Below are positions 13,546 to 37,119 of a stretch of 39,528 nucleotides of DNA, piece after piece. The stretch is from a virus: the IMG/VR virus record IMGVR_UViG_3300021405_000029, positions 1-39,528 of that record. One strand, 5' to 3'. The notes beneath the pieces were generated by a model that was not told the origin of the DNA, searched no databases, and saw only the letters and a program-made list of their open reading frames with translations. Numbering within the stretch: position 1 is the stretch's first letter; every line of letters starts with the position of its first letter. The translations under genes were made by a program, and so were the position numbers.

Positions 13546-13626
13546 GGAGAGGTGTGTGAGCGGCAAAACAGGCAGACTGTAAATCTGTTGCCTCCGGCTA
13601 CGTAGGTTCGAGTCCTACTCTCTCCA
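13546..13626 (+). tRNA. tRNA-Tyr (GUA anticodon)
   Basis: An 81-base cloverleaf with a long variable arm as in bacterial tRNA-Tyr. Acceptor GGAGAGG (13546-13552) pairs with TCTCTCC (13619-13625), with one G-U at the base. The anticodon stem GCAGA/TCTGT has loop CTGTAAA (anticodon 13579-13581), and the T arm is GTAGG-TTCGAGT-CCTAC. The discriminator is A and the CCA end is not encoded. It lies just after the Gp157 stop inside the rightward operon. All usual conserved positions look intact, so it should function and decode UAU/UAC. Confidence 0.93.
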
Positions 13627-20693: not shown

Positions 20694-20743
20694 TCCTTGA
20701 CTCCATTACATCCACATCAATCCGTTGATAGCTAGAGTATAAA

Positions 20744-22297: not shown

Positions 22298-23676
22298 AAT
22301 GGTTTAGCTCCTTTTCTGAAGGCAGACTCAACCTTCCCTTTCTTAATTGGCATCTGAACATAACCCCCTTTTCCATCGGGAACGTTCATCATGAATACAT
22401 TTTTTTCGCTCTTGCTTGGACTATAAGTGCCGGTTGCTTGAATCGAGGCGATTGCTTTCGGTGTAGTGTAAAGAGGCCAATTCCCGAGATTGCTTCCCTG
22501 ATAACTTTTGCCATCTGAAGAAATCAATGGGAAGTCTTGCTGATAAGCAGACCACAATAAATCAGCATCCGTTTTCTTAGCACCGCTTTGGGGATTACCC
22601 AACGTGGAGAGAAATTTGCTTTTCTCCATGATTCGATCATTCACGCCATTCACCCATTGGGTTTGTGTAGCGCGCGCATCATCCGTCATGGTTCTATCAA
22701 ACTTCATTTTGGATGCCATGTTCATATCAAGGTTTGAGAACCGTGCAGAACCCATCGCATCTTTCAATGTCTCTATAGCAGAGGGCAACATTTGTAATGC
22801 AGAACGGTCTGCGGTTTGCTCAGGTGATAGATCACCGGGCGGTGATAGAAATCCAGAGCTAGGCGCGTGCCCTAAACGAGATCCCTTATAGAATGATTTA
22901 TCCATAGCTTGGTTAAATACGCTAATGGCTTGGTTCATTGAATTAGCTGCATTCGCTTCTTGAATAGAGCTAGCTAATCCCTTCTGGAATTGGTCATATT
23001 GATCTTGCTGTTGTTTCTTGGCATTTTCCATTTTAGGCGTGAACGTATCCATGCCTAACATCATTTTATTAAAGATGTCTGCTTGCGTTAGTTGCGGCGT
23101 TTGAATGCCATAAATTCCATTAGGAGACGCAGGCGCCTGCATGCCTTGAGGTTGTGTAGCCGCTCCACCTCCCATTGCAGGAGACGATCCACCTGTAGGC
23201 TGCATTCCGGGTTGACCCATACCTCCACCACCACCTGCAGCCGCGGCACCTGTTTGTCCGTTTTGACCAAGCTGAGCTTTTAAATAGTTCAACTTCAATA
23301 AATTCTGTTGTGCTTCAATAGAGGCTTGTTGGGTTTGTGCGTTTTGTAAGGCAATATCCGATGCAGTTTTCTTGCCATACCATTGGGTTTGCTGGTTAGC
23401 TAAACCTGTTTGAGCGCCTCTTAATCCAATTTCGGATTGCCAGATTTTAGGGTTCCATTGATTTTCCTGTTGGGCTTTGGTTAAAGCCTGACCTGCCATT
23501 GGTTCTGCATACTTGGCCTGAACTGCTGCTATTTGATTAGCCAGTATCTTTGCCTGCATATCTTGAGGAAACATCATGGCGCTTTGCCCGAGCTTTTGCC
23601 CACGCTCCATTCCCACCAGCATAGGGTTCGCTTCATCAAAACTGATTCGCTGAAAGTCTGGGAATTGAATAGCCAT
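22294..23676 (-). CDS. Ejection (internal virion) protein 2
   Basis: A 460-residue protein. The N-terminal helical part (residues 1-130) is Gln/Ala-rich with repeated NAQTQQ-like runs. A Gly/Pro/Gln-rich linker at about 140-185 is encoded by a GC-richer segment, and the C-terminal half is mixed alpha. It lies between the gp7-like gene and the 517-aa gene, the place of P22 gp20. Its start overlaps the stop of the gp7-like gene. Role: injected with DNA, probably forming part of the periplasmic conduit. Confidence 0.65.
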   Translation of the reverse strand: MAIQFPDFQRISFDEANPMLVGMERGQKLGQSAMMFPQDMQAKILANQIAAVQAKYAEPMAGQALTKAQQENQWNPKIWQSEIGLRGAQTGLANQQTQWYGKKTASDIALQNAQTQQASIEAQQNLLKLNYLKAQLGQNGQTGAAAAGGGGGMGQPGMQPTGGSSPAMGGGAATQPQGMQAPASPNGIYGIQTPQLTQADIFNKMMLGMDTFTPKMENAKKQQQDQYDQFQKGLASSIQEANAANSMNQAISVFNQAMDKSFYKGSRLGHAPSSGFLSPPGDLSPEQTADRSALQMLPSAIETLKDAMGSARFSNLDMNMASKMKFDRTMTDDARATQTQWVNGVNDRIMEKSKFLSTLGNPQSGAKKTDADLLWSAYQQDFPLISSDGKSYQGSNLGNWPLYTTPKAIASIQATGTYSPSKSEKNVFMMNVPDGKGGYVQMPIKKGKVESAFRKGAKPL

Positions 23677-24371
23677 TACATGCTTCCCCCTACGCCTTTA
23701 CCGATGTTCCATCCTGCCATAGCGCCTGTCGGACCCCCAAACATTCCGCCTGCAACAGCGCCCGCACCGCCTAACAGAGTGCCCCACATACCGCCGCTGT
23801 GCTGATTTTCTGCGTTCTGGCTCTCATAGGCTAGCTTCGCTTTTTGAGCCAGTATAGAGGCCATATCTTCGCCCATAGCCATTCCGGTTTTGGCACCCGT
23901 ATCGTATAGACCTTGTTGGCCTTGTAAGCCTGTGCCGTACATGCCTAAAGCATGGCCTAACCATTGGTTGTAATCTTGGTTCGCAAGCCCTGTCGCAACG
24001 CCCATATTTTGTTGTTCGTGCTGGGGAGACCCTGCCATACCACCTGCGGCTGCGGCGTGATTTCCACCTTGAAGAGCTTGCTGGAGGGCAAATTGAAAAC
24101 CGGGTGATTGATGATAACCTGCGCCAATCTCATTGAGACGGGCGCCGGGATCGTTAATTAATTTACCGTATTGATCTTGAAGACCGGGCAGAGCTTTCTG
24201 CCCAGCATTGATATAGGGACTTAAATACTTATCCAACATGCCTGGCATTTGGTTCATGTAATCCATGCCAGCATCGCCTGGGTTTTTCCAGTTACCGCCT
24301 AGCATGCCCATAGCACCCGTGGCGAGTCCTGCGCCTCCTGCGGTCATCCAATTAGCTAAATCACTAGGCAT
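23676..24371 (-). CDS. gp7-like DNA transfer (ejection) protein 1
   Basis: A 231-residue protein with a signature I recognise from phage DNA-transfer proteins: YLSPYINAGQKALPGLQDQY, then HQSPGFQFALQQALQGGNHA, AAAGGMAGSPQHEQQ and QDYNQWLGHALGMY. The protein ends in Gly/Ala hydrophobic stretches at both termini (GAGLATGAMGMLGG; GAGAVAGGMFGGPTGAMAG) suited to membrane insertion. In P22 gp7 leaves the virion first and, with gp16 and gp20, extends the tail through the cell envelope. Its location after the tail accessory genes agrees with P22 gene order. Confidence 0.75.
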   Translation of the reverse strand: MPSDLANWMTAGGAGLATGAMGMLGGNWKNPGDAGMDYMNQMPGMLDKYLSPYINAGQKALPGLQDQYGKLINDPGARLNEIGAGYHQSPGFQFALQQALQGGNHAAAAGGMAGSPQHEQQNMGVATGLANQDYNQWLGHALGMYGTGLQGQQGLYDTGAKTGMAMGEDMASILAQKAKLAYESQNAENQHSGGMWGTLLGGAGAVAGGMFGGPTGAMAGWNIGKGVGGSM

Positions 24372-24383
24372 ACGTAATTCCTT

Positions 24384-24704
24384 TTACGTTAGAGTGAAGG
24401 TCTTGGTCGCAGTTACAATAGGCGGACCAATAGATGATAATATAATACCTTTAAAAGCATTATTGGTACTATCATATATTATGTTACCAATTGCAGAGCT
24501 AATACCTCCAAGCAGTGCAATATTCGATGCACTCTGAGGAGGAACCACAATCCCTTCTGGCTTAAAGTTGGTCTGTAAAGCCATTGTTAATTGTTGAAAA
24601 TATAAAACCCACTGTGAAGTCATATAGCCGTTTTTATCCACCACTTGTGTGTCTCGTGGTAGATCAGGAAATATGGCTTGTTGTTTATTCGTTTGTGTTG
24701 TCAT
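24384..24704 (-). CDS. Small virion protein (gp26/gp14 position)
   Basis: A 106-residue protein starting MTTQTNKQQAIFPDLPRDTQ, then NGYMTSQWVLYFQQLTMALQ, a pattern frequent in short podovirus structural proteins. The start used overlaps the stop of the gp10-like gene (ATGA). The longer reading lies inside that gene and is not supported. In P22 this slot holds the tail needle gp26 and gp14. It is too short, and lacks the long coiled coil, for a needle, so the exact role is open. Confidence 0.6.
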   Translation of the reverse strand: MTTQTNKQQAIFPDLPRDTQVVDKNGYMTSQWVLYFQQLTMALQTNFKPEGIVVPPQSASNIALLGGISSAIGNIIYDSTNNAFKGIILSSIGPPIVTATKTFTLT

Positions 24705-26386
24705 TGTCTTACGTTTACGACTCCATCCGTTATTACAAAACGTCCTATTCCCCAAAACCTAAACTGGCATACCAAATCATTTGCTATTCCTAATTGCCAC
24801 CACGCAAGCTTGTTTTTACGCTGTCCAATAGGAGGTAGATATTGAGCATCATAGCTACTGAAATGCTCGCCACCATCAATCGAAATCGATAGATCAACAC
24901 GTGGTACCGTATGCTCAATAAAGTCTTGCTCTGAAATAAGATTAAAGAAATCAGTCGTGTCAACTTGTTGGGATACAAGGTTTTGTCCATCCTCTGTTAT
25001 TAGTATTTCACCGTCTTCAGTCGTAAAGAAAATCGGACCACCTTCGGTAATATATTTCTTACCATCTTCCGTAATTAAATAAATTGGACCGAGGTCTTGA
25101 TCAAGATAATTTGTGTTACCCGACTCAATCGTAAAACCAATATCATTTGCGATAAAATATTCTTGTTTGTTATTCCGAATCGCTTTGCAAGTTCTTATAC
25201 GTGGAATTTCTTTACCGTCATAAGTCGTGAAGATAGTATCGAAAGCATATAAATTACCGTTGTTTTTCGATATAAAATAATATTGATTATTGAAGAACGC
25301 CACTTCTGCTGCAATGAAGTAATTATTAAGCTCATCACATGCATGATAAATTTTAAATGAACCGTCTTTTAGAAAATCCACGAAGAAAGACAAATTATCC
25401 GAATAGAAATTAATGTGATAAAAGATATGACCATCTTGCCTAAAAATAAAACCTTGAGAATCCTGTGGGTTTTGCAAATTCGATAAAACGTAATCAAAAC
25501 CATCCGTTGTAATTTGCTGTGGCATTCCACCATCAGAATACATAAGAACCGGACCCGCTTTCTCATTAATAGAAAGCCATACAACAATTTCATCCATCGA
25601 TGCAATTGTTGCAGGATTCAAACATCCATAATCCACATTGAATGATGTGTTTCTTTGGTAAGGGAACAGTTGATATCCAACGTCAAACCAAGGTTCTGTA
25701 ACCGTTCGACCAAACACAAAGATCATATTACCTTTGCTTGGGAACCTAACAACAGCTTGGGTATTATCGGGTTTTGTTTGTAGCAGACCAATGCTTGCTG
25801 CATCATCAGGCCATGATAATCCGTTGTTTTGTGCTGACAGGCGCCACGTATTATTTGCAGGAGGCGAATAGAAGCCATCTGCACTAGCAGCGCATAGAAA
25901 ATAAGTATCATGAAAATCAATAAATCCCGGAATAAAGGATGTCGTAACAACCTGAAAACTTGGGCTTTGAGTCGGGTCATAAATATAAAGTGAGTTGCTA
26001 TCAGAAAAAAGAATTTGAGGCTTATTATTCTCTGCTATATAGACAACACCTTTCGTTGTTTGCAGTTCACCAATCTTCGTTACTTGGCTTGACGTTACAA
26101 CTTGTTGCTGTTGATCAAAGGTTAAATTCACCAAATAAACATTGCTATCAACAACAGTAATTAATCGACCTAATTTAACACTCGAATGAATTCCTCTACC
26201 CTGTTTTCCACCACCAAATACACTTGCAGCAATGGCTAGTTGATATCCCGCATAGGGAACCATCCATCCATCAGAGATAAACATATTGTAAGTTTTTTCA
26301 ATCGAGATTTTTGGATAGCGACCGAAGGTGGAAGAACCTACTATGTTTAAAGGCATTTCGATATGGGTTTGAGACCTATTTATCAT
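24701..26386 (-). CDS. gp10-like tail accessory / DNA stabilisation protein
   Basis: A 561-residue protein resembling P22 gp10 (packaged DNA stabilisation), which plugs the portal after packaging. Shared features are repeated beta-propeller-like strands with Tyr/Asp turns, a KGNMIFVFGRTVTEPWFDVG segment like the family's Gly-Ser/Thr-x-E-x-Phe core, and a C-terminal LVCQFRFWGIGRFVITDGV. It is about 90 residues longer than gp10 (472 aa), in part from an ITEDG-repeat insert (about 433-470). The start is at TAATG with GGAGG five bases upstream, which is better than the slightly longer reading. Confidence 0.75.
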   Translation of the reverse strand: MINRSQTHIEMPLNIVGSSTFGRYPKISIEKTYNMFISDGWMVPYAGYQLAIAASVFGGGKQGRGIHSSVKLGRLITVVDSNVYLVNLTFDQQQQVVTSSQVTKIGELQTTKGVVYIAENNKPQILFSDSNSLYIYDPTQSPSFQVVTTSFIPGFIDFHDTYFLCAASADGFYSPPANNTWRLSAQNNGLSWPDDAASIGLLQTKPDNTQAVVRFPSKGNMIFVFGRTVTEPWFDVGYQLFPYQRNTSFNVDYGCLNPATIASMDEIVVWLSINEKAGPVLMYSDGGMPQQITTDGFDYVLSNLQNPQDSQGFIFRQDGHIFYHINFYSDNLSFFVDFLKDGSFKIYHACDELNNYFIAAEVAFFNNQYYFISKNNGNLYAFDTIFTTYDGKEIPRIRTCKAIRNNKQEYFIANDIGFTIESGNTNYLDQDLGPIYLITEDGKKYITEGGPIFFTTEDGEILITEDGQNLVSQQVDTTDFFNLISEQDFIEHTVPRVDLSISIDGGEHFSSYDAQYLPPIGQRKNKLAWWQLGIANDLVCQFRFWGIGRFVITDGVVNVRQ

Positions 26387-27087
26387 TATGGCCTCCAACC
26401 GTGTCCGATATTCACATCTCCGAAGTTAATGCCGGAACCGCGCGTTAGGATTGAACTCTTACGAATTGAAAGATCAGGAGGGCTCACATCCATAAGTTGT
26501 CTTTCGATTGCTTTTAGAATCCCTTTAGACTCTGGGTTCATAATGATCCCATATTCAGAACACATGTATTGCGCCAAAGCATAGCGCAAATATTCCAAAT
26601 AGGATGGGTCATAGGTTAGGAGCATGTTCGTATCAAGGCTTACGTCTTGAAGACCGAATTTACCCATAATCTTGATGGGGTAATTTCCTTGCGGCAAGAA
26701 ATACATATAAATCGAGCCGCCACCCAGAGAACGATTGAAGTACCAATTTGATGGCAAGCTATCGATATTATCGATACGGCCTGTACCAAAATAGGAACTT
26801 CGTGTCGTAAAGTCTGTCGGGTAGCGAACCTGATCAATATTAAAAGTCAGTGTTTCAACCGCGAATAAATTCGGGATGAAATACTGCTCTTGCCCAATAA
26901 CTGCGGGAAACTCGTAATACGTCCAGTACGGAATCAAATCAATCTGTATAGACTTCCAGTCCAGTAACGCATTTAAAAGAAAAAGGCCATCCGTGGCTTG
27001 GTCACCCGTAACGCCTTGCAGCCTACGGGCGACTATCCCTGAAAGAAACCAAGAACGCGTTATCAATTGACGTGCTGTATAAGACAT
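26386..27087 (-). CDS. gp4-like tail accessory / head-completion protein
   Basis: A 233-residue protein whose helical start (TARQLITRSWFLSGIVARRL, then ATDGLFLLNALLDWKSIQID) and later helices (LEYLRYALAQYMCSEYGI, KGILKAIERQLM) fit the P22 gp4 fold that attaches to the portal bottom. A beta-rich segment (residues 60-140) inserts between the helical parts, making it longer than P22 gp4 (166 aa). It lies directly before the gp10-like gene, as in P22. Confidence 0.7.
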   Translation of the reverse strand: MSYTARQLITRSWFLSGIVARRLQGVTGDQATDGLFLLNALLDWKSIQIDLIPYWTYYEFPAVIGQEQYFIPNLFAVETLTFNIDQVRYPTDFTTRSSYFGTGRIDNIDSLPSNWYFNRSLGGGSIYMYFLPQGNYPIKIMGKFGLQDVSLDTNMLLTYDPSYLEYLRYALAQYMCSEYGIIMNPESKGILKAIERQLMDVSPPDLSIRKSSILTRGSGINFGDVNIGHGWRP

Positions 27088-27115
27088 TGATAGCCATCCT
27101 TGAGTTACCTAAAAG

Positions 27116-27877
27116 TTAAGAAAGCGTCACGTAATATCCATTAATCAATATCGAGACGGCATCGCTTGAACTGGTAACCTTATAATCGATTTCTGGTTTG
27201 CTCGAACCCACACCAACATTAAGAACAATGTTGTTTGTCTGAGCAACGCCCGCTGCAATACCCACAATCGTCGGTAAATTAGCTGTCGTTCCGGTATAAC
27301 CTGTAGGTCTGAAAGTAACCACATCGCCTGCAGCTGCAGGAATGAAAGTAACCGTCGCTACGGCAATAACGAAAGGATCGGTCGTTGTTGGGATTGGAGT
27401 CGACAAGTCAACTGCAGTAAAGCTCGTAGCATTACCACCGCTTAGAACACTAACCGCAGGTTGTAAGAAATAACCTTTGTAGTAGTTAGCATTTAAGACA
27501 GAAGCTGCTTGAAAGTTGCTGCTAGAAGTTGTGACCATACCAATCAAGCGACGTGAGTCGTAACCTAATGGTAATAAAGGCGCAACGTTAGCTTGCAAGC
27601 TTATCAGCCCAGATGGTGGATGCTTGTTGCTTGAATCTGCAATAGCCCAGAGATTGTAATTTGCAGCGGCAAGGATTGTTCCAAAGTCCAATCCGCCCGC
27701 ACCATTTACCGCTGAATTCAAGTAAAGTGGTACGTCGTATTCCATATCAATATTGTCATTAAAGTCTCGGCACATGCCAGGGGCAATAGCCATAACCGTG
27801 TTTGACGCAACTGATACGTTCATCCCGCTGATATACAAGTGGGGAATCTGTTCTACCGGTAAATTTTGAATCGTCAT
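27116..27877 (-). CDS. Virion structural protein, unknown role
   Basis: A 253-residue protein. Residues 1-120 resemble phage structural proteins with a conserved LYISGMNVSVASN start, then GMCRDFNDNIDM and LGYDSRRLIGMVTTS. Residues 150-253 form a beta-rich Val/Thr/Gly domain that may be surface-exposed. AGGAG lies six bases before the ATG. Placed between coat and gp4-like genes, it may be a head decoration or fibre-anchoring protein; I cannot decide. Confidence 0.65.
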   Translation of the reverse strand: MTIQNLPVEQIPHLYISGMNVSVASNTVMAIAPGMCRDFNDNIDMEYDVPLYLNSAVNGAGGLDFGTILAAANYNLWAIADSSNKHPPSGLISLQANVAPLLPLGYDSRRLIGMVTTSSSNFQAASVLNANYYKGYFLQPAVSVLSGGNATSFTAVDLSTPIPTTTDPFVIAVATVTFIPAAAGDVVTFRPTGYTGTTANLPTIVGIAAGVAQTNNIVLNVGVGSSKPEIDYKVTSSSDAVSILINGYYVTLS

Positions 27878-27899
27878 CGTAATCTCCTAAATTAGTCTA

Positions 27900-29243
27900 T
27901 TAAGCCTGAGTTAAGGGAATGATGACGCGCATGGAGTAGATATCTACTACAAGCGAACCGTGAGTTTCGTCATAGATAATACCCTTCTGGTTGGCGCCCA
28001 AAATAGAACCGTAAGTCATACGAAGAGAAACGGCTGTTTCAGGATCGTATTCGTTTGCGGTATCGAATGGACGTTGATCAGGTAATTGTGGCATTGCAAT
28101 GTAGAATGCATCACCGCCTACTACTAAACCTGCTCTGTGCGAAGGAACAACGGTAATTTGCATACCGGGTTGCAACGCTTGGTTCAAGTTTTGTGTTTGG
28201 CCGCCTGCCCAATTCAACGGAGGATTGATATTGATGGTGACATTACCAGAGGAGTTGGAACCCGCATCTGCTAAGGCACGCATTTGGACTTTATTTGCAG
28301 ACACTTTGTGACCGATATAGGTCAGGTATCGCATGTTGTTAAAGCCTGACACGCCATCATTGAACTGGAATAAGTCACCAGATTTGATTGCGTTAGCATC
28401 GGATGCTGAAGCACCAGAGAATGTTAACTGAGTAACATTTTGTCCGCTTGGGTCGTTCACACTAACCAAGGTTAAAACCGTACCGTTATTACCTACGTTT
28501 CCAGCGAAGTGGATAGGTAATAAGTTTGATTGGTAGTATTTAACGCGAGGCGTACCGAACTCACCCACTTCCCAAGACATAGCAATTTCATTGTTACGTT
28601 CTGGTGCGAATTGATTTAAACCGGTACCAACGATAGCAGGATAAACCGTATCTGGCAGATAAACCTTAATACCGTGTTGTACGGAACCAAAGTTTTTGAA
28701 GAGCATTATCATTTGAGCCAGCTGATTATAGCTGGTCAATTGAACCTGTCCGTCGCCGAAATAGCGGAAAGGACCAGACTCAGTATGCAATGCACCTGTT
28801 GGGACTGATTGACCTTGTGAGTTAACCGTCATAACAGGAACCGCTGATACTGCGTTCAGAGCCAAGTTGCCTTCAACTTCGTTTGCAAGTTCTGTTAGGA
28901 ACGATTTGCCGAATACTTCAATGTATTCATCTTCGCCTTTTTCCAAGTTGAAGATACGTTGTTGGGCGGTAACGGTGAATGAAGAGTTGAATGCCTGATC
29001 GCAAGTAAGCGTTTGAACTTGTTGTACAGCGGGTTGCCATGCAACGACCAAACCTGCGGAGGTGGTAGCTCTTGGAGGTGTGTCAAAGGTAACACTGGAT
29101 CCAAGGTTAGCCTGAATCTTTTCGAAGTCTTTAAACTTGGTGTTTGCAGTAGCTACAAAACAGCACAAGTTTTGCAACAAGCCTAGAGACGATCTTTGAT
29201 ACGTCTGTACTTGTTGTAAAATATTATCTGCGTATAAAGCCAT
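27900..29243 (-). CDS. Major capsid protein (P22 coat-like)
   Basis: A 447-residue protein of about the length of P22 coat gp5 (430 aa), immediately downstream of the scaffold gene. The strongly structured C-terminal third (MQITVVPSHRAGLVVGGDAF, YIAMPQLPDQRPFDTANEYD, then SLRMTYGSILGANQKG and VIIPLTQA) fits an HK97-fold coat. The central region (GDLFQFNDGVSGFNNMRYLT) lies where P22 carries its insertion domain. AGGAG lies eight bases before the ATG, next to a small hairpin (AACTAT/ATAGTT, 29257-29278) that may tune translation. Confidence 0.85.
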   Translation of the reverse strand: MALYADNILQQVQTYQRSSLGLLQNLCCFVATANTKFKDFEKIQANLGSSVTFDTPPRATTSAGLVVAWQPAVQQVQTLTCDQAFNSSFTVTAQQRIFNLEKGEDEYIEVFGKSFLTELANEVEGNLALNAVSAVPVMTVNSQGQSVPTGALHTESGPFRYFGDGQVQLTSYNQLAQMIMLFKNFGSVQHGIKVYLPDTVYPAIVGTGLNQFAPERNNEIAMSWEVGEFGTPRVKYYQSNLLPIHFAGNVGNNGTVLTLVSVNDPSGQNVTQLTFSGASASDANAIKSGDLFQFNDGVSGFNNMRYLTYIGHKVSANKVQMRALADAGSNSSGNVTININPPLNWAGGQTQNLNQALQPGMQITVVPSHRAGLVVGGDAFYIAMPQLPDQRPFDTANEYDPETAVSLRMTYGSILGANQKGIIYDETHGSLVVDIYSMRVIIPLTQA

Positions 29244-29296
29244 TGTAATTGCTCCTAACTATCATTCCATGAATAGTTCGGATAATTACGGCGTGC

Positions 29297-30097
29297 TTAT
29301 ACTCTGTATTTCCTACGATAGTCACTTACAGAGAGCGCACCTTTATTATCCGTTCCGGCGTTAGAAGGTCGCATCTGACTTAGTGGTTCATTAGGAGCTT
29401 TGAAATTGGCGCCTTGTGCATTCGTCTTGATAGACTCTGACAAGCGTCTCATTTCGGCCATTGCAAGGTTGGGTTGTCGACCCGCTCTCATGTCAATGTC
29501 GATTAGGTTTTGAATCGATCCAATCTTGGAGGGATTCTTAACCAGTTCGAGCATGACTTCTCTTGTATTATCCACCATGTTCGCTAATTGAACGTGATAG
29601 GGAATACTGCGTAAGTCTAAACCTGATTCTTGTACCGTTTTCTCGAAGGCTTGCATACCGCCTTCACCTGCACCGATCTTTGTGAAGAACTCAGAAGCAA
29701 TCCGTTGCGCGTTTTGTTCCTCCGCACTCCGTTGCGACTCTTGTTGCCACTCATTCCTTAAGCGCTGAGCCTCTTCCGCAGCCATTCGCCTGAACTCGTG
29801 TTCTGACATTCCATTGTACTGAGACGATTGTTGCGGCTGCTGCCCCTGCGGTTGCTGATAAGGCGTCTGCTGGTGCTGCGGCGTTTGGGGTTGTTGATGC
29901 GAAGACATTGCTGTCTCACGTCTAAACCTTTCAATTGCCTCGGACTTTGCACGTCCTACAAGTTCATTTACTTCTGACTGTTTAAAAGTTCGTTCTGCTT
30001 CGGCTGGCGCTTGTGATGGCGAAGACGAAGGTGTTACAGGTACTCCGGCACTAGAACCTTGAAAATTCTGGCCTTCTCCATTTACCATTTCTGTCAT
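29297..30097 (-). CDS. Scaffolding protein
   Basis: A 266-residue hydrophilic protein with a disordered N-terminus (residues 15-35 Ser/Pro/Ala; residues 70-90 Gln/Pro-rich), a long charged helix (residues 95-135), and a basic C-terminal end (SVSDYRRKYRV), the part that in P22 gp8 binds coat protein. Length and location before the coat gene match P22 gp8 (303 aa). A GAAGGGA Shine-Dalgarno precedes the ATG. The 190-base leader upstream carries two copies of a structured element. Confidence 0.85.
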   Translation of the reverse strand: MTEMVNGEGQNFQGSSAGVPVTPSSSPSQAPAEAERTFKQSEVNELVGRAKSEAIERFRRETAMSSHQQPQTPQHQQTPYQQPQGQQPQQSSQYNGMSEHEFRRMAAEEAQRLRNEWQQESQRSAEEQNAQRIASEFFTKIGAGEGGMQAFEKTVQESGLDLRSIPYHVQLANMVDNTREVMLELVKNPSKIGSIQNLIDIDMRAGRQPNLAMAEMRRLSESIKTNAQGANFKAPNEPLSQMRPSNAGTDNKGALSVSDYRRKYRV

Positions 30098-30110
30098 GTG
30101 ATTCCCTTCT

Positions 30111-30281
30111 GACTGTTAACCCCGTCACGGTATTGCCTCTCATATCGCAAGAGTCTCGACTAGTTTATCGTCATGATAGGCATAGTTGCCTTGGCTGTTA
30201 CCCCGCCACGGTTATAGGCTCCGTTAGCTAACTTCGCCTGCCTCACATATCGCATGAGTCTCGTCTATTTATCCCCGATAG
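30111..30281 (-). ncRNA. Duplicated structured RNA element in scaffold leader
   Basis: Two copies of one element lie between the capsid promoter and the scaffold start: 30111-30179 and 30193-30281. Each has three small hairpins in the same order on the transcribed strand: TATC/GATA; a seventeen-base hairpin with outer stem CTCA/TGAG or CTCT/AGAG and shared loop core; and CCGTGRCGG. In the second hairpin the fourth pair is A-U in one copy and U-A in the other (30137-30153 versus 30242-30258), a compensatory change. The second copy has an insert with palindrome GTTAGCTAAC. No open reading frame explains this. Confidence 0.6.
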
Positions 30282-30294
30282 ATCGGTTATTAAT

Positions 30295-30323
30295 ACTTTA
30301 AATCTTGACAACCTATTAGTCAA
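30295..30323 (-). promoter_or_regulatory. Capsid-gene promoter
   Basis: On the minus strand TTGACT (30318-30323) and TAAAGT (30295-30300) with 17-base spacing. The transcript would start near 30287, giving a leader of about 190 bases before the scaffold ATG that contains both structured RNA copies. It allows scaffold and coat to be made independently of the packaging genes upstream. Confidence 0.55.
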
Positions 30324-30349: not shown

Positions 30350-30514
30350 TCAAGATGTGACTCTATCCCAAATCTTATTAATGATATCTGCTTGCTTTGG
30401 CGAGAAGTGCGTGTGGCATTCCATATCTGAAATAAAAGTTATTTCCCAGTCGGATAAATCTTCTTGTCTATTAAGAATATCCGCCACCATTGTCTCTAAT
30501 TCACTATGATCCAT
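30350..30514 (-). CDS. Small phage protein, 54 aa
   Basis: A 54-residue acidic protein: MDHSELETMVADILNRQ, then DLSDWEITFISDME and SPKQADIINKIWDRV. The layout (a Trp-Glu-x-x-Phe core followed by Ser-x-Lys-Gln and a final Ile-Trp-Asp-Arg-Val) is like small phage proteins I have seen, of unknown role. The ATG overlaps the stop of the DUF3310 gene by eleven bases, and AAGGA is about eleven bases upstream. It is the last gene before the capsid promoter. Confidence 0.6.
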   Translation of the reverse strand: MDHSELETMVADILNRQEDLSDWEITFISDMECHTHFSPKQADIINKIWDRVTS

Positions 30515-30959
30515 TCTTCAAGCGTTCCTTAATTTCGTCTTGGATATACCAAATTGCCTTGCGTAAGTCCTCAATGCTTGCGCCTTTGTGGTCGCAACGC
30601 CAAAGGTACTTTATTGCGTTACCAACATTGAATGAATGGTGACGGGTTATATCTATGCATTCAATACGACGCCCACATTCGCATTTAGCAGGACTATTAT
30701 TATAATGCGGAGGATGGTTAACATTATCTTGGGCTTGCATTTTGTAATGAGGATCTCCTACATATTCTTTTGCTAAAGGTCCGGGTTCACAAGATAAGCC
30801 ATTAATGCTTCTTTGATTGTGAACAATATCGTCCTCTACTGATAAACGGTCACGCGACAATCCCATATCTTCTTCCTTAACTCTGTTTCCACAATTCCCA
30901 CAAAAGTCCTTGGTGAACCATATGGGCACCTTATAATCATTACAAAAAGAACAAGTCAT
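30504..30959 (-). CDS. DUF3310 protein with N-terminal zinc site
   Basis: A 151-residue protein. Residues 1-25 carry two Cys pairs (CSFCNDY, CGNCGNR) that form a likely zinc ribbon. Residues 80-145 match DUF3310: VNHPPHYNN, IECIDITRHHSFNVGNAIKY, then LWRCDHKGAS and EDLRKAIWYIQDEI. A CECGRR insert occurs inside the domain. DUF3310 proteins are common in phages and often annotated loosely as nucleotide kinases, without clear evidence. The chosen Met lies four bases beyond the upstream stop. Confidence 0.85.
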   Translation of the reverse strand: MTCSFCNDYKVPIWFTKDFCGNCGNRVKEEDMGLSRDRLSVEDDIVHNQRSINGLSCEPGPLAKEYVGDPHYKMQAQDNVNHPPHYNNSPAKCECGRRIECIDITRHHSFNVGNAIKYLWRCDHKGASIEDLRKAIWYIQDEIKERLKNGS

Positions 30960-30963
30960 TTCG

Positions 30964-31152
30964 TTACTTTTTCTTATGTAAGCCTTTAAGCGTTTTAGCA
31001 AGGGATGCTTCCTTACGAATGGTGGGGTTTTTACTATGTTCGGCTTTTTCCATCTTCTTAGCGGGGATTTTCTTGCCTTCAGGAACGCCTAACTCACGGT
31101 GTAGTTTTCCGGGATGCTTGATAGCTCCCTTGATCCATTTCTTCTCTGCCAT
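30964..31152 (-). CDS. Small basic phage protein
   Basis: A 62-residue Lys-rich protein: KWIKGAIKHPGKLHRELG, VPEGKKIPAKKMEKA, then a basic tail. I recognise the pattern from short phage proteins of unknown function. It is one of four tiny basic proteins in this genome (see 911, 14666, 31285). AAGGAAG precedes the ATG. Confidence 0.7.
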   Translation of the reverse strand: MAEKKWIKGAIKHPGKLHRELGVPEGKKIPAKKMEKAEHSKNPTIRKEASLAKTLKGLHKKK

Positions 31153-31453: not shown

Positions 31454-31663
31454 TTAGTTAACTTTAACGACCCAGTCGGTGGCTTGTAAATCATCGACAC
31501 TCGGAGTGTAGGTTTGAACGTTCGGTTCAACCGTCTTCCCTGTAGATGCTATCAACCAAATGTAACTTTGATTTGATAATACCGTAGCATAATATCCAGA
31601 CCACGCAGGGCGAATCAATTTCTTTCCCAATAGCATATTATTTAATGCATCTGAAAATATCAT
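31454..31663 (-). CDS. DUF2829 protein, Tad2-like (possible anti-Thoeris)
   Basis: A 69-residue protein matching DUF2829: FSDALNNMLLGKKLIRPAW at the start, a central aromatic/hydrophobic strand (YIWLIAS), and the C-terminal TPSVDDLQATDWVV typical of the family. Some DUF2829 members (Tad2) block Thoeris defence by sequestering its cyclic ADP-ribose-type signal. At 69 residues it is near the short end for the family. Its start overlaps the portal stop (ATGA) with GAGGG upstream, so it would be co-expressed with the packaging genes. Family membership is fairly clear; the anti-defence role is inference. Confidence 0.7.
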   Translation of the reverse strand: MIFSDALNNMLLGKKLIRPAWSGYYATVLSNQSYIWLIASTGKTVEPNVQTYTPSVDDLQATDWVVKVN

Positions 31664-33819
31664 TGTGCCCTCGCTCTTTCAGCTCTGTCTTCTTTAGAAG
31701 AATGAATGTTGTGATGAACTTCAATGGCCTCTTTGAAGTGCCTGTGCGTCATATCGTGTTTCTTCATGGCCAAGTCTACTTGTCTTGAGAATCGTTCCGC
31801 CTCGGCCTTTATTCTTTGCGTTAAGCTATTCTCTTTAGCGATAGCCATATCCGATAATACTTTCAATTGATCCTGCTTTAATTTCTGCATATCAATTTGC
31901 AACTGGCCTTGATGCATTTGCCCTTTCATTTGGGTTTCTTGTTGCTTTTGTTGAAGCTTCGCCATCTCAATTTGGTTCTTAACGACTTGAGGATTGTTCT
32001 GCATTTCTTGTTGTTGCTGTTGTTGCATCATTGCCTTTTGCTTAGCCAACTCTTGCTGCCAGTCTTCGACCATCATCTTCAATTGATCGATACCGCGTAT
32101 TTCGATGTTATCAAGCAATACGCTTAAGCCCTTCTCGTTCATGAACTGCGCGAACAATGGTGATGCTTGTTGTAATGCAATCAACTGCTGTAATGCGCGA
32201 GACTTTTGAATTTGGAAGGAAACACCGGCTTCAACGCGAACGTTAAGTACATTCGTGTCGTAGAACATATCAACGCCTTTGTCCTGATTAATTTTCACGT
32301 AATCAGCTTTACCATCAATTCCCATAACAGGAATGGTTCGAGGCGTTTTGTAATACTTCGGAATGAGATCGACGATTATTTCAGCAACTCTTTGCAAGCC
32401 TTGTAAAAAGCCCACGATGTAAGGCATAGCAGCGGAATTAGATTGAGTTGCGGCCTCCACAATTGCCACGCCACTAAGCTGATTGTCATTAATCCCGAGA
32501 GAAGCATCGTAGCTTCCCAAAATGTTCTGTATGAGGGAATCGGTAGATGCAAAAGTCTGCACAACTTCAGGAGGAGTCGGTACACGCTGTATTTCCCTTA
32601 TTGGATTCGGTATTGGTTTGTCGGGGTCTTGTTCAAAGAACGCATTAAACACCATGTTAGATGGCTTCTGCATATCCTTATAGGAATTGAGCCAGTCCAT
32701 TTCTTTTGGCAACGCTTCTTTAGCGACAAGGAATTTGTGCTGGACGATATTTTCCATTTCGTTAGCAAGCGTGATACCTGAGAAGTTCTTAAGTTTTTGT
32801 GCGCCTTTAGCATGGTAAACATAAGGACGTGTGAACTGCTGAACGGCACCCGATGTTTTCGGGTTCTTTAACATGATGGAATTACCATCGAAGAACACTA
32901 GCGGGAAGAAGGTGAAATCAGTTTCAACATACTCAATAACCTCTGTTTCAATACAACGATAACGACATACCGTTTCAAGGTTCGTCCATCGCATTTTACC
33001 TTTCGTAGCAGGAGGCATATCAATACGACCTGAACGATCCCACTCTTCAAGCAGCGCTTCATATTCTTTTACCGTCATGACTTGGTTATTCACCAATTGA
33101 ACGATCTTAACTTCACGCTTTTTCTTCTCGTAGTAGTCGGCAACAATTAGAATCTTTTCATTACCGTTTAGATATGACCAATTGAACCCACCAAATGAAC
33201 GGTTAAAGCTAACCTTATCAACGCGAATCTTTGGGTTTTCTTCTTTGAATGTTTCTAGTTCTCTAGGGAACAATTCAAATTGATATCTCCCGTCACCTTT
33301 ATGTGAATAGCGTGCTAATTGATCCCATCCGCATAAGGTTGGATCAAATACCCTGTCCCAGTTTATGACTTGATTAAAAGCATTCGGACCGATGGGAGCT
33401 GCGTAATCCGTCCAGAGTTTAGCGGCTGAAAAACCTCCGCTATAAATATCTTTCATGATTTCCCATCTACTGTGATGGTTCTTGTTGTCGCGCAATAGAT
33501 GACGAACATGCGCCTCTACAACGTGAACGGTAGTAGGATCGGCTTGATCTTCGTCTTCCGCTCCAACCGAAATAGAAGGTTCCTGCTTTGAGAATTCACC
33601 CATTAAACGCGATATGTAAGCCTCGGTCACATTGAACTCTATTTGAGGTTTAGATAGCTGCGTTAGGAGAGTTATATCGTCTTGGGTAAGAGAGGTTTCA
33701 AAGATGAAACGTCGGAATTCATGATAGCGCTCATAGTTAGGCTTAAAAGCCTCGTAAGAATTCTTTACATTCTTTTTGATGCGCTCAAGTTGGTCTTGAT
33801 GAGTTTTAGCCACTTCCAT
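31660..33819 (-). CDS. Portal protein (P22-like)
   Basis: A 719-residue protein, near the length of P22 gp1 (725 aa). Residues 30-100 carry the family pattern (FRRFIF, LSKPQIEFNVTEAYISRLMG, EFSKQEPSISV). The middle holds the stem and wing regions, and residues 600-719 form a long Gln/Lys/Met-rich helical region (QQQQQEMQNNPQVVKNQIEM...) comparable with the P22 barrel. The portal is the dodecameric channel for DNA entry and exit and the base for tail assembly. It starts 14 bases inside the end of the terminase gene with AAGGA upstream. Confidence 0.9.
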   Translation of the reverse strand: MEVAKTHQDQLERIKKNVKNSYEAFKPNYERYHEFRRFIFETSLTQDDITLLTQLSKPQIEFNVTEAYISRLMGEFSKQEPSISVGAEDEDQADPTTVHVVEAHVRHLLRDNKNHHSRWEIMKDIYSGGFSAAKLWTDYAAPIGPNAFNQVINWDRVFDPTLCGWDQLARYSHKGDGRYQFELFPRELETFKEENPKIRVDKVSFNRSFGGFNWSYLNGNEKILIVADYYEKKKREVKIVQLVNNQVMTVKEYEALLEEWDRSGRIDMPPATKGKMRWTNLETVCRYRCIETEVIEYVETDFTFFPLVFFDGNSIMLKNPKTSGAVQQFTRPYVYHAKGAQKLKNFSGITLANEMENIVQHKFLVAKEALPKEMDWLNSYKDMQKPSNMVFNAFFEQDPDKPIPNPIREIQRVPTPPEVVQTFASTDSLIQNILGSYDASLGINDNQLSGVAIVEAATQSNSAAMPYIVGFLQGLQRVAEIIVDLIPKYYKTPRTIPVMGIDGKADYVKINQDKGVDMFYDTNVLNVRVEAGVSFQIQKSRALQQLIALQQASPLFAQFMNEKGLSVLLDNIEIRGIDQLKMMVEDWQQELAKQKAMMQQQQQQEMQNNPQVVKNQIEMAKLQQKQQETQMKGQMHQGQLQIDMQKLKQDQLKVLSDMAIAKENSLTQRIKAEAERFSRQVDLAMKKHDMTHRHFKEAIEVHHNIHSSKEDRAERARAQ

Positions 33820-35341
33820 GTGCTTTCCTTCTTAAGTAGTCTACATGCTGCTGTCCTTGCATCATGCTGGAGGCCAATTGATTATAGTCTACCTTTGTCG
33901 CCACTTGGTGAACTATTATTTTATCAATGAAAGCCGCATTAACCGCATCGTAACAGGTATCCGCTATATCATCGAACTTGTGCGTATTGTTTGCCGTGAT
34001 ATCTGTCATATGGTCTAAACACATTTTCGTATGTTTTGCAAGCAATGGCAATGAAACTTGTTTAGCAGCGATATATTGCTGCATGTCAATGAAACGTTGG
34101 GTCTTAGAACCTGACTTAACGGTTCTGTCTATGCCGATTACCTTAAGCCCTTGAGTGTTTTTCAGTACGGAGACTAGGGTTACCCCTGTAGATTTCTTTT
34201 CTATTATTGCGCATTGTGGTTTAACCGTGAACGACATGCAGCTTGACCAGAAATCCAAGAACTCTCCTTCTAGGTCTTTAGGTTCGATTTGAAGCTGGCG
34301 GCAATCCAACCAATGCAACGCATAAAGGTTATCGACCTTGACATTCTTGTGCTTTATTTCGTATAGACCCCAGAATGAGAACACTGTCTTGTCGTTCCAT
34401 TCCTTCTCAGTTTCGGAAGTATCAACGGTAATGAATGTCGCAAGGATATCGGGGAACTTTTCAAGTAAGGGGAAATACTCATCCTTGTAGAGACCACCAC
34501 CTGCAGGTATTGGGTCTTGCTGGTATTGTGATGCGAAAACGTAAGGCTTGAACTGCTTCATCTTAATAAGCGTTTCACGCGGCATCACTTCTGGATAGCG
34601 AGCGTTGCCCGCATCATCCAAAGCCTTAATATTTACGTGGTTCCACTTATTACCGTCTTCACCATTTAAGAGGTAAGTGAATAAATCGTCTTGGTGGAGC
34701 CTTTGCCCAATAACAACGATGGGGACACTGTGACCACGACAACGTGGGGCAATTGTTTCGATGAAATTTCTTTTGACCTTTTCTCGGATAACGTCACTAT
34801 GTATTTCGTCTGGTTTATGGATATCGTCAACAAAAACACCTCCTGAGTAACGATCCAAACCAGGTAAACCAGCATCACGACCTGTAACCGGACCAGAAGA
34901 GCCGAAAGCAGCGACAGCACCACCGTTGATGGTCTTAAAGAAATCCTTCGCAGAGCTTTCACGGTTGATCTCAACATTAAATAATTTCCTGTATATGGGT
35001 AACATCATCGTTTGTTTAATGGTGTGAGTATGACTTGACGCTAGTTCATGGGCAAAAGAAATGTAGAGTTCATTGCTATCGGGATACCACGCTTTCGCCC
35101 AGCAAATGAAGTTCTTAATCAATTCGCTTTTAGACCAACCGGGAGGACAATTAATAAGAAGATGCGTAACGCGCCCAAAGAAAACATCTTCAAGCGCACG
35201 ACATATTTCAAGAAAGTGCGACTCATTAGAAACGGGATTGCTAATGATAAAGTCGCGCCCCGTTCTCTCCTTAAATATGAAGCGATTGAAAAGAAAGAAA
35301 TCAGACAGCAAATCAACCCGGAGTTGATGTAGATCGTCCAT
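33806..35341 (-). CDS. terL: Terminase large subunit
   Basis: A 511-residue packaging motor. The ATPase half has a Walker A-like NCPPGWSKSE (residues 64-73) and Walker B VFVDD (169-173). The nuclease half has the strand ATFITVDTSETEK (Asp307) and Asp residues in HKFDDIADTCYDAV (family RuvC-like nuclease). The type fits P22/Terminase_6-like headful packaging. An upstream ATG gives two more residues but lies only three bases from AAGGG; the start used has proper spacing. It overlaps terS by 29 bases. Confidence 0.92.
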   Translation of the reverse strand: MDDLHQLRVDLLSDFFLFNRFIFKERTGRDFIISNPVSNESHFLEICRALEDVFFGRVTHLLINCPPGWSKSELIKNFICWAKAWYPDSNELYISFAHELASSHTHTIKQTMMLPIYRKLFNVEINRESSAKDFFKTINGGAVAAFGSSGPVTGRDAGLPGLDRYSGGVFVDDIHKPDEIHSDVIREKVKRNFIETIAPRCRGHSVPIVVIGQRLHQDDLFTYLLNGEDGNKWNHVNIKALDDAGNARYPEVMPRETLIKMKQFKPYVFASQYQQDPIPAGGGLYKDEYFPLLEKFPDILATFITVDTSETEKEWNDKTVFSFWGLYEIKHKNVKVDNLYALHWLDCRQLQIEPKDLEGEFLDFWSSCMSFTVKPQCAIIEKKSTGVTLVSVLKNTQGLKVIGIDRTVKSGSKTQRFIDMQQYIAAKQVSLPLLAKHTKMCLDHMTDITANNTHKFDDIADTCYDAVNAAFIDKIIVHQVATKVDYNQLASSMMQGQQHVDYLRRKAHGSG

Positions 35342-35780
35342 GATCATCGCCCTTTAATTTAGTAACCTCTGAGCGTGCTTTCTCTAAAGATGAATCGACA
35401 CTATCATCTTTAACATCATTGTTAACCCGACCATATTCAGAAGGATGCCTACGTTCTAATTTCCAAGCAGCAGCCTGCCAATGTACATCTGCCGCGTTAT
35501 CAATCTTCTCAAGCCATTTCAATGCAGCATAAGATTCAACGCGTTTTACATCGCAATAAAACTCGTAATAAATTCTATCAGGATGAAATTCAATTTGTTC
35601 TTCGAATAGATGAGCAAGAGGTTCTCCCTTCTTCATCCAATCACGGAATGTTTGATAGGCAATACCTGCATATCCGCAGGCAAGTGTATAGGTAGCGCCT
35701 TTAGCAAGCGCTGTCAGTATTTTCTCTTTCACGCCCGGCTTTTGAAGCTTAAGCGGTTGTCCCTTTGTTGTTTCTTCCAT
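35313..35780 (-). CDS. terS: Terminase small subunit
   Basis: A 155-residue protein with an N-terminal helix-turn-helix (KEKILTALAKGATYTLACGY, AGIAYQTFRDWMKKGEP), a central helical part (VESYAALKWLEKIDNAADVH) and a charged C-terminal tail, the usual layout of small terminases that bind the pac site and hand DNA to TerL. It lies directly before terL and starts 32 bases inside the end of the methyltransferase gene, with AGGAAG six bases upstream. Confidence 0.8.
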   Translation of the reverse strand: MEETTKGQPLKLQKPGVKEKILTALAKGATYTLACGYAGIAYQTFRDWMKKGEPLAHLFEEQIEFHPDRIYYEFYCDVKRVESYAALKWLEKIDNAADVHWQAAAWKLERRHPSEYGRVNNDVKDDSVDSSLEKARSEVTKLKGDDHGRSTSTPG

Positions 35781-37026
35781 TGGCTACTTCCTCAAACGAT
35801 AATCCATTCGTTTCGAGTACGGCTTTCTCACCGGTGAAATCCTGCCACCGCTTAATAATAACTTCGCAATAGAGCGGTGATATCTCCATCATAAGGCATT
35901 TTCGATTATGTTTCTCGCACGCAATCATTGTCGTGCCTGAACCACCGAATGGATCATAAACATAATCGCCGGGCTTGCTGTTGTTTTGTATAGGGCGCGC
36001 CATGCACTCTATTGGTTTTTGGGTGCTATGCCCCCATGTCTTCTCTGCAGCTCCACCAAAGGCATTATTGTTTAGTATATCCCACGCAGTTGATTGATCC
36101 CTTGCGCCTTGCCAATTGTGCTTTTGACCCTTTCTAACCGCATACCAGCATGGTTCGTGCTTCCAATGATAATCGCCACGGCTTAGCGCAAAGTGCTGCT
36201 TAACCCATATGATTTGGGAAGCTAGCTCGAAACCACAGTTTTGAAGATGTGCGCCAACATCGCCAGCAAACAAGCCAGCGTGCCAAACATAGCAAACGTC
36301 GCCAGGAAAAAGAGAATATGCATCTGTCCAATCCACGCGATCATCATTTTCAACTTTTCCTTTAGAACGCTCACCCACGCCGAGGTTTGCTTCATCACGC
36401 CATTCAGCATCGTATTTCACTCCATAGGGTGGATCGGTAACCATTAAGTTTGGCTTAAACTCTTTGCACAATTCTTGAACATCTAGCGGATTAGTTGAGT
36501 CACCACACCGCAAACGATGCCCACCCAAAATCCAATTGTCGCCGCGTACAATGACAGGGTAATGATCCACTGTGGGAATAGCGTCATCATCTTTTAAGCC
36601 TTCATTGATTACTTCAGGATTGATTAACGCTTCGATTTCCTTGTCTTCGAAACCTGTCTTAGATACATCAAACCCGGCGTCTTTCAATTCCTGTAATTCT
36701 ATTTTCAATAACGTGTGATCCCATCCTGCGTTCAACGCAATCTTATTATGAGCTAGCACATAAGCCTTCTGCTGCTCGCGTGTAAGGTGACCCAATTGAA
36801 TAGTCGGAACTTCTGAGTAGCCGAGGAGTTTAGCGGCCTCAAGGCGTCCGTGACCCGCAATGACTCCGTTTAGCATATCGATTGCTATCGGATCATTAAA
36901 ACCGAACTCTTTCATGCTCGATGCAATTTGCGCTATTTGCTCGTCCGTGTGAGTGCGAGAGTTATTAATGTAAGGAATTAATTTCTCAATTGGAATATTG
37001 AGGATTTTTAAAATAGGTAATTTCAC
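35749..37026 (-). CDS. ParB-domain DNA methyltransferase
   Basis: A 425-residue fusion. Residues 10-100 are a ParB/Srx nuclease-like domain (IEKLIPYINNSRTHTDEQ, with GHGR at 58-61). Residues 165-405 are a beta-class adenine/cytosine-N4 methyltransferase with catalytic DPPYG (198-202) placed before the SAM site DPFGGSGTT (358-366). Such fusions often sit beside terS in temperate phages and probably protect phage DNA from restriction or mark packaging sites. No endonuclease partner is present. The GTG start has AAGGA eight bases upstream; a TTG start 39 bases earlier has none. Confidence 0.88.
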   Translation of the reverse strand: MKLPILKILNIPIEKLIPYINNSRTHTDEQIAQIASSMKEFGFNDPIAIDMLNGVIAGHGRLEAAKLLGYSEVPTIQLGHLTREQQKAYVLAHNKIALNAGWDHTLLKIELQELKDAGFDVSKTGFEDKEIEALINPEVINEGLKDDDAIPTVDHYPVIVRGDNWILGGHRLRCGDSTNPLDVQELCKEFKPNLMVTDPPYGVKYDAEWRDEANLGVGERSKGKVENDDRVDWTDAYSLFPGDVCYVWHAGLFAGDVGAHLQNCGFELASQIIWVKQHFALSRGDYHWKHEPCWYAVRKGQKHNWQGARDQSTAWDILNNNAFGGAAEKTWGHSTQKPIECMARPIQNNSKPGDYVYDPFGGSGTTMIACEKHNRKCLMMEISPLYCEVIIKRWQDFTGEKAVLETNGLSFEEVANGRNNKGTTA

Positions 37027-37119
37027 GGTAAATATCCTTTTTCCGCTTCTTACGTTTTTTGACAACAGGAAACATTTGCCCGTAATCAGACGTAGCTAAT
37101 GTGCCATCAAAGTAAAATA

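Follow-up and report, generated by a model that had tools for sequence, protein, structure and literature searches.

The question raised by this locus is what kind of RNA precedes the capsid scaffold gene of an uncultured P22-like phage, and what that RNA does for the gene it precedes. The stretch analyzed, referred to here as the window, is a 39.5-kb virus record in which the leader transcript lies on the minus strand. Its gene neighborhood is a P22-like head module with a terminase large subunit (33806-35347; PHROG 38), a portal (31660-33819; PHROG 156 and Pfam P22_portal, PF16510, E 1e-80), a scaffold ORF and a major head protein. The scaffold gene (266 aa; 29297-30097, minus strand) is found directly downstream of the leader, between the P22-like portal and the coat gene, and the gene for the 447-aa major head (coat) protein (27900-29243, minus strand; PHROG 283, E 5e-15) is the next of the operon. 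PHROG/Pfam-type searches returned no convincing direct family match for the ORF at 29297-30097, and its identity as a scaffold gene is taken from its position and its conserved place ahead of the coat gene. The head module also holds an unusual gene between the portal and the scaffold gene, an ORF (30504-31001) with matches to DUF3310 and phage nucleotide kinase families in its C-terminal part. Adjoining the terminase small subunit is a fused gene (35749-37065) whose 438-aa product has a ParB-like nuclease part (residues 19-160) and a DNA methyltransferase part (PHROG 498, E 7e-142), and a plus-strand tRNA gene (13546-13626; Rfam, 54 bits) is flanked by a RecT-family gene region and a gene for an RNase T-like exonuclease.

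A sequence-only reading of the window had described a three-hairpin element, present twice ahead of the scaffold gene, at 30111-30281. The site was right, with the true extent slightly longer (about 30111-30286), and the duplication holds: one RNA unit occurs twice on the minus strand, as unit 1 (30193-30286) and unit 2 (30111-30190), between a promoter at 30295-30323 and the scaffold gene, and the copies share a 32-nt core (30134-30165 and 30239-30270) that is 88% identical. A covariance model matches both units, at 30193-30289 (E 4.6e-10) and 30111-30185 (E 1.8e-9), with no further credible match anywhere in the 39.5-kb window. The three-hairpin form has to be redrawn, as the outer hairpins are H-type pseudoknots in which the loop pairs with a downstream segment and both helices covary.

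Read from its 5' end, unit 1 is predicted to begin with an H-type pseudoknot, PKa (30264-30286, minus strand), of the form CCGA [UCUA] UCGG - GGAUAAA - [UAGA], both helices of which covary among homologues. It is followed on the same strand by a hairpin (30240-30260), GA-CUCA-UGCGAUAUG-UGAG-GC, whose pairs covary among 58 distinct copies, by an insert stem-loop (30216-30239) with AGCUAAC in its loop, and by a second pseudoknot, PKb (30193-30212; ACCGUGGCGGGGUAACAGCC), with two C-G pairs as S1 and GGC/GCC as S2. The insert, correctly seen in the sequence-only reading as a palindrome in one copy, belongs to the window's own clade only, where the loop is kept in most members and the stem varies (L005, L006, L008, L010, L012, L039 and L180). 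Unit 2, also on the minus strand, repeats the order with PKa at 30159-30190 (GGCA [ACUA] UGCC - UAUCAUGACGAUAAAC - [UAGU], with a small UAUC/GAUA hairpin within the long loop), the hairpin at 30135-30155 (GA-CUCU-UGCGAUAUG-AGAG-GC), and PKb at 30111-30131 (ACCGUGACGGGGUUAACAGUC), the 3' end of which abuts the Shine-Dalgarno sequence (SD) read at 30103-30110 on the minus strand (AGAAGGGA).

The observation that had first drawn attention to RNA structure, an A-U to U-A swap beneath an unchanged loop, is confirmed: the hairpin stem is CUCA/UGAG in copy 1, with A30255-U30245, and CUCU/AGAG in copy 2, with U30150-A30140, and the loop is UGCGAUAUG in both. PKb provides a second compensatory change between the copies, its S2 being GGC/GCC in copy 1 and GAC/GUC in copy 2. 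Nevertheless, the window alone proves little; one swapped pair is weak evidence, and the proof comes from homologues. Single-sequence folding of the window leader (MFE z-score -1.06) is not informative, because the folding tool cannot form pseudoknots.

Homologues were collected with a coat-protein search, which gave 80 related viral loci, and with a pattern taken from the 3' part of the element, which gave 95 stretches, for a total of 109 distinct leaders from 108 viral loci. Structure played no part in extracting the first set of upstream regions, and in this set the layout is unchanged down to coat proteins about 47% identical. A related scaffold gene follows the element in 99 of the 108 loci, with 5-24 nt (mostly 10-17) between the end of PKb and the scaffold ATG across the 108. 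A coat relative (38-100% identity) lies downstream in 100 of them, starting 742-914 nt past the element, and the other eight contigs end ahead of the coat gene, which means that it is present wherever there is enough sequence (100/100). The three genome contigs with a relative are metagenome bins assigned to unrelated genera (Sulfuricurvum, Legionella and Flavobacterium) and so point to no one host. Where enough upstream sequence is available, two PKb-like modules are present in 29 leaders and a single one in 74; in the more distant coat group all 22 members have one module, by the definition used. In some loci, among them L032, L146 and L169, the first unit's PKb runs directly into the hairpin that follows, such that one pseudoknot ends one unit and opens the next. 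In several loci (L035, L109, L142, L160 and L023) the units are preceded by an additional conserved hairpin, GUAGACYYGUGACNNAUAGCRRGG, which looks like a variant of the unit hairpin with a longer loop. One contig bearing a scaffold leader also has five tRNA genes in a row on its minus strand (L176:289-673).

Across these leaders the order is PKa, hairpin, and PKb, with PKb ending right before the SD. PKa has a stem of 3-4 bp, and nearly all of that stem's loop forms a second stem of 4 bp with a segment located 5-7 nt further along, beyond an A-rich loop, as in ACGCA[GCUA]UGCG-GAAAAA-[UAGC]. PKb has the form ACCGUGACGGGG-xAAYA-GUC, with C2-G12 and C3-G11 as stem 1 and GAC/GUC as stem 2; this stem 1 is the one of four pairing schemes compared that fits both main types, and the register seems to be shifted in the AGCG..GGCG variant. 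The helices are only 2-5 bp long, with the exception of the clade-specific insert stem.

A first automatic pseudoknot parse found the correct PKa in most single-unit leaders and a wrong one where loop 3 is long, as in the window's clade, and its real scores exceeded the shuffled 95th percentile in only 35%. As a result, we relied on sequence alignment with slid and shuffled controls: 48 diverse single-unit leaders were aligned by sequence with MAFFT, and the named structure was then counted. In the 48 leaders, 95.5% of cells pair, a percentage raised by most of the leaders having been picked for a clean PKa by complementarity parse, compared with 16-43% in slid controls and 79% in shuffles. 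The covariation score is 0.468, compared with 0.030-0.098 for slid and 0.162 for shuffled alignments, and 10 of 13 pairs change on both sides, including 8/8 PKa pairs, four in each crossing helix. PKb S2 variants outside the alignment also pair (GGC/GCC, AAC/GUU, AGC/GCU, GAU/AUC and GGU/ACC). Although the alignment did not include the window's own two units, both are found by the model, and inspection shows their PKa helices to be complete. Within the hairpin, pairs 2-4 covary and are 84-100% paired over the 58 distinct copies, pair 2 being mostly U-A or C-G, pair 3 C-G or U-A, and pair 4 A-U, G-C or U-A; the swap between the window copies is one case of the variation at pair 4. PKa and the hairpin keep their structure while their sequence varies, and PKb is nearly invariant in sequence. 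By comparative sequence evidence, the predicted pseudoknot-hairpin-pseudoknot structure is beyond reasonable doubt. Selection for RNA structure, which the sequence-only reading had proposed and had staked on covariation in further homologues, is upheld by both PKa helices, and that covariation is very strong. A leader peptide was also considered, from a short reading frame seen by eye across the leader, and was rejected on the indels and structure-preserving changes in relatives.

The sigma-70-type promoter at 30295-30323 (minus strand; -35 TTGACT at 30318-30323, 17-nt spacer, -10 TAAAGT at 30295-30300) had been called a good one; its placement upstream of the element agrees with relatives, but its match at 9 of 12 consensus positions is by itself no better than chance in the region. 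It gains weight from near-consensus promoters, TTGACA-N16/17-AATAAT, at the equivalent place in relatives. In single-unit leaders with good promoters the -10 hexamer ends 6-12 nt before PKa, and an extra 5' hairpin or unit lengthens this distance to about 31-45 nt. The window's -10 box ends at 30295, its first PKa begins at 30286, and transcription would be expected to start near 30288, just upstream of the element rather than downstream of it. With the promoter just upstream of PKa, the RNA should begin with structure and have little else before the SD, and the structure would fill the 5'UTR of the scaffold mRNA.

This arrangement is also what recommends the main rival explanation, a ligand-free 5'-terminal mRNA stabilizer and ribosome-site insulator, in which the 5' pseudoknot would block 5'-end-dependent decay and PKb would keep the SD free, leaving the late operon mRNA long-lived and well translated. 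An RNA that begins with structure, as the 6-12 nt spacing implies, a PKa kept in structure rather than sequence, tandem copies that would add protection, and sister phages that place another pseudoknot at the 5' end are all as this explanation would have them. Gene 32 transcripts are the most stable T4 mRNAs (PMC3014915), and stabilization could be the main or a joint function here. On the other hand, the near-invariant sequence of PKb and the absence of the element elsewhere in related loci suggest specific recognition, and we consider a pure stabilizer possible but doubtful.

A leader at the start of a transcript that would cross the late genes might instead act on the polymerase. The put RNAs of HK022 are structured RNAs near transcript 5' ends, and a put-like or EAR-like processive antiterminator would have the nascent leader modify RNA polymerase for read-through of the long late operon. 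We regard this as unlikely, given that a scan of the operon over 20600-30100 showed no convincing terminator on the minus strand, that such an element would not need to adjoin the SD, and that the leader has no Rfam match of any kind. A packaging signal, which the sequence-only reading had also suggested, finds no support, as this is a DNA phage and what is conserved is an RNA, located where an mRNA is predicted to begin.

How specific the element is to this position was assessed by running the model on 55 related loci (668 kb), where all 59 reported matches fell at the scaffold leader and no second site was found. Against 4227 Rfam models, including riboswitches, ribozymes and leader motifs, the leader had no match at the gathering score, and relaxing the threshold to E 10 produced nothing credible, with a snoRNA (E 2.8) as the best hit; leaders from five further loci likewise had no Rfam match. 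Similarity searches of cultured phages with the window leader, its coat protein and a relative's leader found no match, none of the annotated phage records matches the leader, and the window model has no credible match in cultured P22-like phages. No paper describing the leader RNA was found in the searchable literature, which has most subscription journals outside its reach. By Rfam and the searchable papers the family is undescribed, in agreement with the sequence-only reading, which knew of no named RNA family of this form.

The same searches bear on catalysis and processing. A compact pseudoknotted fold in a phage might be a self-cleaving ribozyme, and RNA processing had been proposed for this site in the sequence-only reading, a proposal that finds no support. 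Even at relaxed thresholds there is no match to Rfam ribozyme families, the leader has no long, mostly continuous duplex of the kind found at RNase III sites, and a pseudoknot at the transcript start leaves nothing 5' to trim. Both possibilities are very improbable.

What these loci have in common is a conserved structure, in a conserved position, restricted to the scaffold gene. The reading that we favor, to which we give a probability of roughly 0.4, is that the element controls scaffold synthesis at the level of translation, plausibly in an autogenous manner; of the three suggestions in the sequence-only reading, control of scaffold/coat translation is the best. Under this reading, transcription of the scaffold-coat operon would begin just upstream of the first pseudoknot, each unit would fold as pseudoknot-hairpin-pseudoknot, and the last pseudoknot would abut the scaffold SD. 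The near-invariant PKb would be recognized by a protein, most plausibly free scaffold and possibly coat, or by the 30S subunit. Initiation at the scaffold start would then depend on the state of the leader, and scaffold output would be matched to capsid assembly, as in the post-transcriptional control reported for P22. Several observations point this way. The terminal PKb keeps its distance from the scaffold start in all 108 loci, with the coat relative next wherever sequence allows, and in sister P22-like phages the equivalent place is taken by another covarying pseudoknot. That neither the window nor the 668 kb of related loci contains a further credible site is unlike a general stabilizer or enhancer, and a PKb that is near-invariant while PKa and the hairpin vary in sequence is as expected of a recognized site. 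That PKa, at the 5' end, is conserved in structure and PKb, at the SD, in sequence suggests two jobs, a 5' cap-like block and a recognized site. Free scaffold would be the natural ligand, since P22 scaffold is reported to be autoregulated and the T4 gene 32 pseudoknot operator is autogenous.

With the SD outside the pseudoknot, repression by occlusion is not built in. An anti-SD switch formed by the hairpin arm was tried and rejected, as cognate arms pair with the SD at -2.81 kcal/mol, compared with -3.08 for mismatched and -2.94 for shuffled arms, and across leaders the arm and the SD show no sign of coadaptation. An RNA-binding domain was sought by sequence in the scaffold protein, and none was found. 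The lack of such a domain, together with the lack of an alternative SD pairing, is why the mechanism is held at the probability given above. A small-molecule or temperature riboswitch for scaffold translation would share the compact pseudoknots beside the SD and the sequence-conserved PKb; we think it quite improbable, as the element is seen with one viral gene only in the viral loci searched, the alternative pairing of the hairpin arm and SD is not favored, and no Rfam riboswitch matches.

The sister phages mentioned above are cultured P22-like phages whose portals are about 20-22% identical to that of the window. They are without the window element, and their scaffold leaders begin with a different pseudoknot, found by reading the leaders by eye: [S1] UA [CCAGUG] [S1'] UU [CACUGG] in BA3, X14, Vibrio phages and VvAW1, and AGGU-A-CGCG-ACCU-UAU-CGCG in 234P9. 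This marine type lies upstream of the scaffold gene at L188:11040-11117, L189:11120-11183, L204:5050-5110, L209:990-1045 and L210-L242. With 35 more viral loci added, 15 distinct versions were compared. In these, all stem-1 pairs, as well as stem-2 pairs 2 and 3, change on both sides, and 98% pair, whereas shuffling the partners gives 71% (84% at most); the pseudoknots were placed with an anchored pattern and a degree of hand selection. The evidence for this predicted covarying pseudoknot is strong but secondary. Like the window leader, the marine leaders (BA3, X14, VvAW1 and 234P9) place a covarying H-type pseudoknot before the scaffold gene, shortly after a promoter-like sequence. Unlike it, their S2 is usually longer (6 bp), their loop 3 is shorter, they have no PKb, and the SD is in a hairpin loop, with several having it in the loop of the following hairpin, e.g., CGUAUA-GGAACA-UAUACG. 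Pseudoalteromonas phage H6/1 (L202:5560-5634) has the marine-type pseudoknot followed by a PKb-like ACCGUAAUGGGG just before the scaffold start codon, and its leader is possibly an intermediate between the two types.

The present leader thus represents a large, strongly covarying RNA family of uncultured P22-like phages that is tied to one gene, the capsid scaffold, and the analogous leader in cultured marine relatives makes it testable there. Its chained layout, with one pseudoknot shared by two units in some leaders, is a compact natural RNA building block. More tentatively, it may stand for a cis-regulatory RNA of a new class, built as a modular chain of H-type pseudoknots that fills the 5'UTR of phage scaffold mRNA and reads assembly status through free scaffold or coat, in which case P22-like phages would have evolved at least two leader pseudoknots for one job.

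One of the closest known systems is P22. Its scaffolding protein (gene 8) is reported to be autoregulated (Wyckoff and Casjens 1985, as cited in PMC5744158). P22 has the scaffold gene and the portal-scaffold-coat order in common with the window, but it is without such a leader, with a gap of only 13 nt between gene 1 and gene 8. A gap of this size has no room for the leader, and the autoregulation of P22 must therefore work differently. We know of no RNA target for it. The present family gives a defined RNA target for the scaffold-autoregulation question published for P22 in 1985 (cited in PMC5744158). The mRNA pseudoknot of ribosomal protein S15 (rpsO) is a translational operator (PMC3014915); unlike the window leader it belongs to a cellular gene and is a single pseudoknot, and the Rfam searches found no similarity between the two.

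Another close parallel is gene 32 of phages T4, T2 and RB69, where, as in the window leader, an H-type pseudoknot occupies a 5' position in a phage mRNA leader and is kept across related phages. The pseudoknot of the T4 gene 32 leader is an autogenous translational operator; it is a single pseudoknot, separated from the start, which lies 67 nt downstream, by an unstructured A+U-rich tract (PMC3014915). The window leader likewise has an H-type pseudoknot backed by comparison (8/8 PKa pairs, at the covariation score given above), situated between the predicted transcription start and the ribosome-binding site. It differs in that the gene is a capsid scaffold and in that a chain of several pseudoknots and a hairpin reaches up to the SD, with the hairpin and PKb occupying the space that the unstructured spreading tract has in gene 32, such a tract being absent here. 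The leader pseudoknot operator is a known kind of working, of which the scaffold leader, by analogy, is a candidate member.
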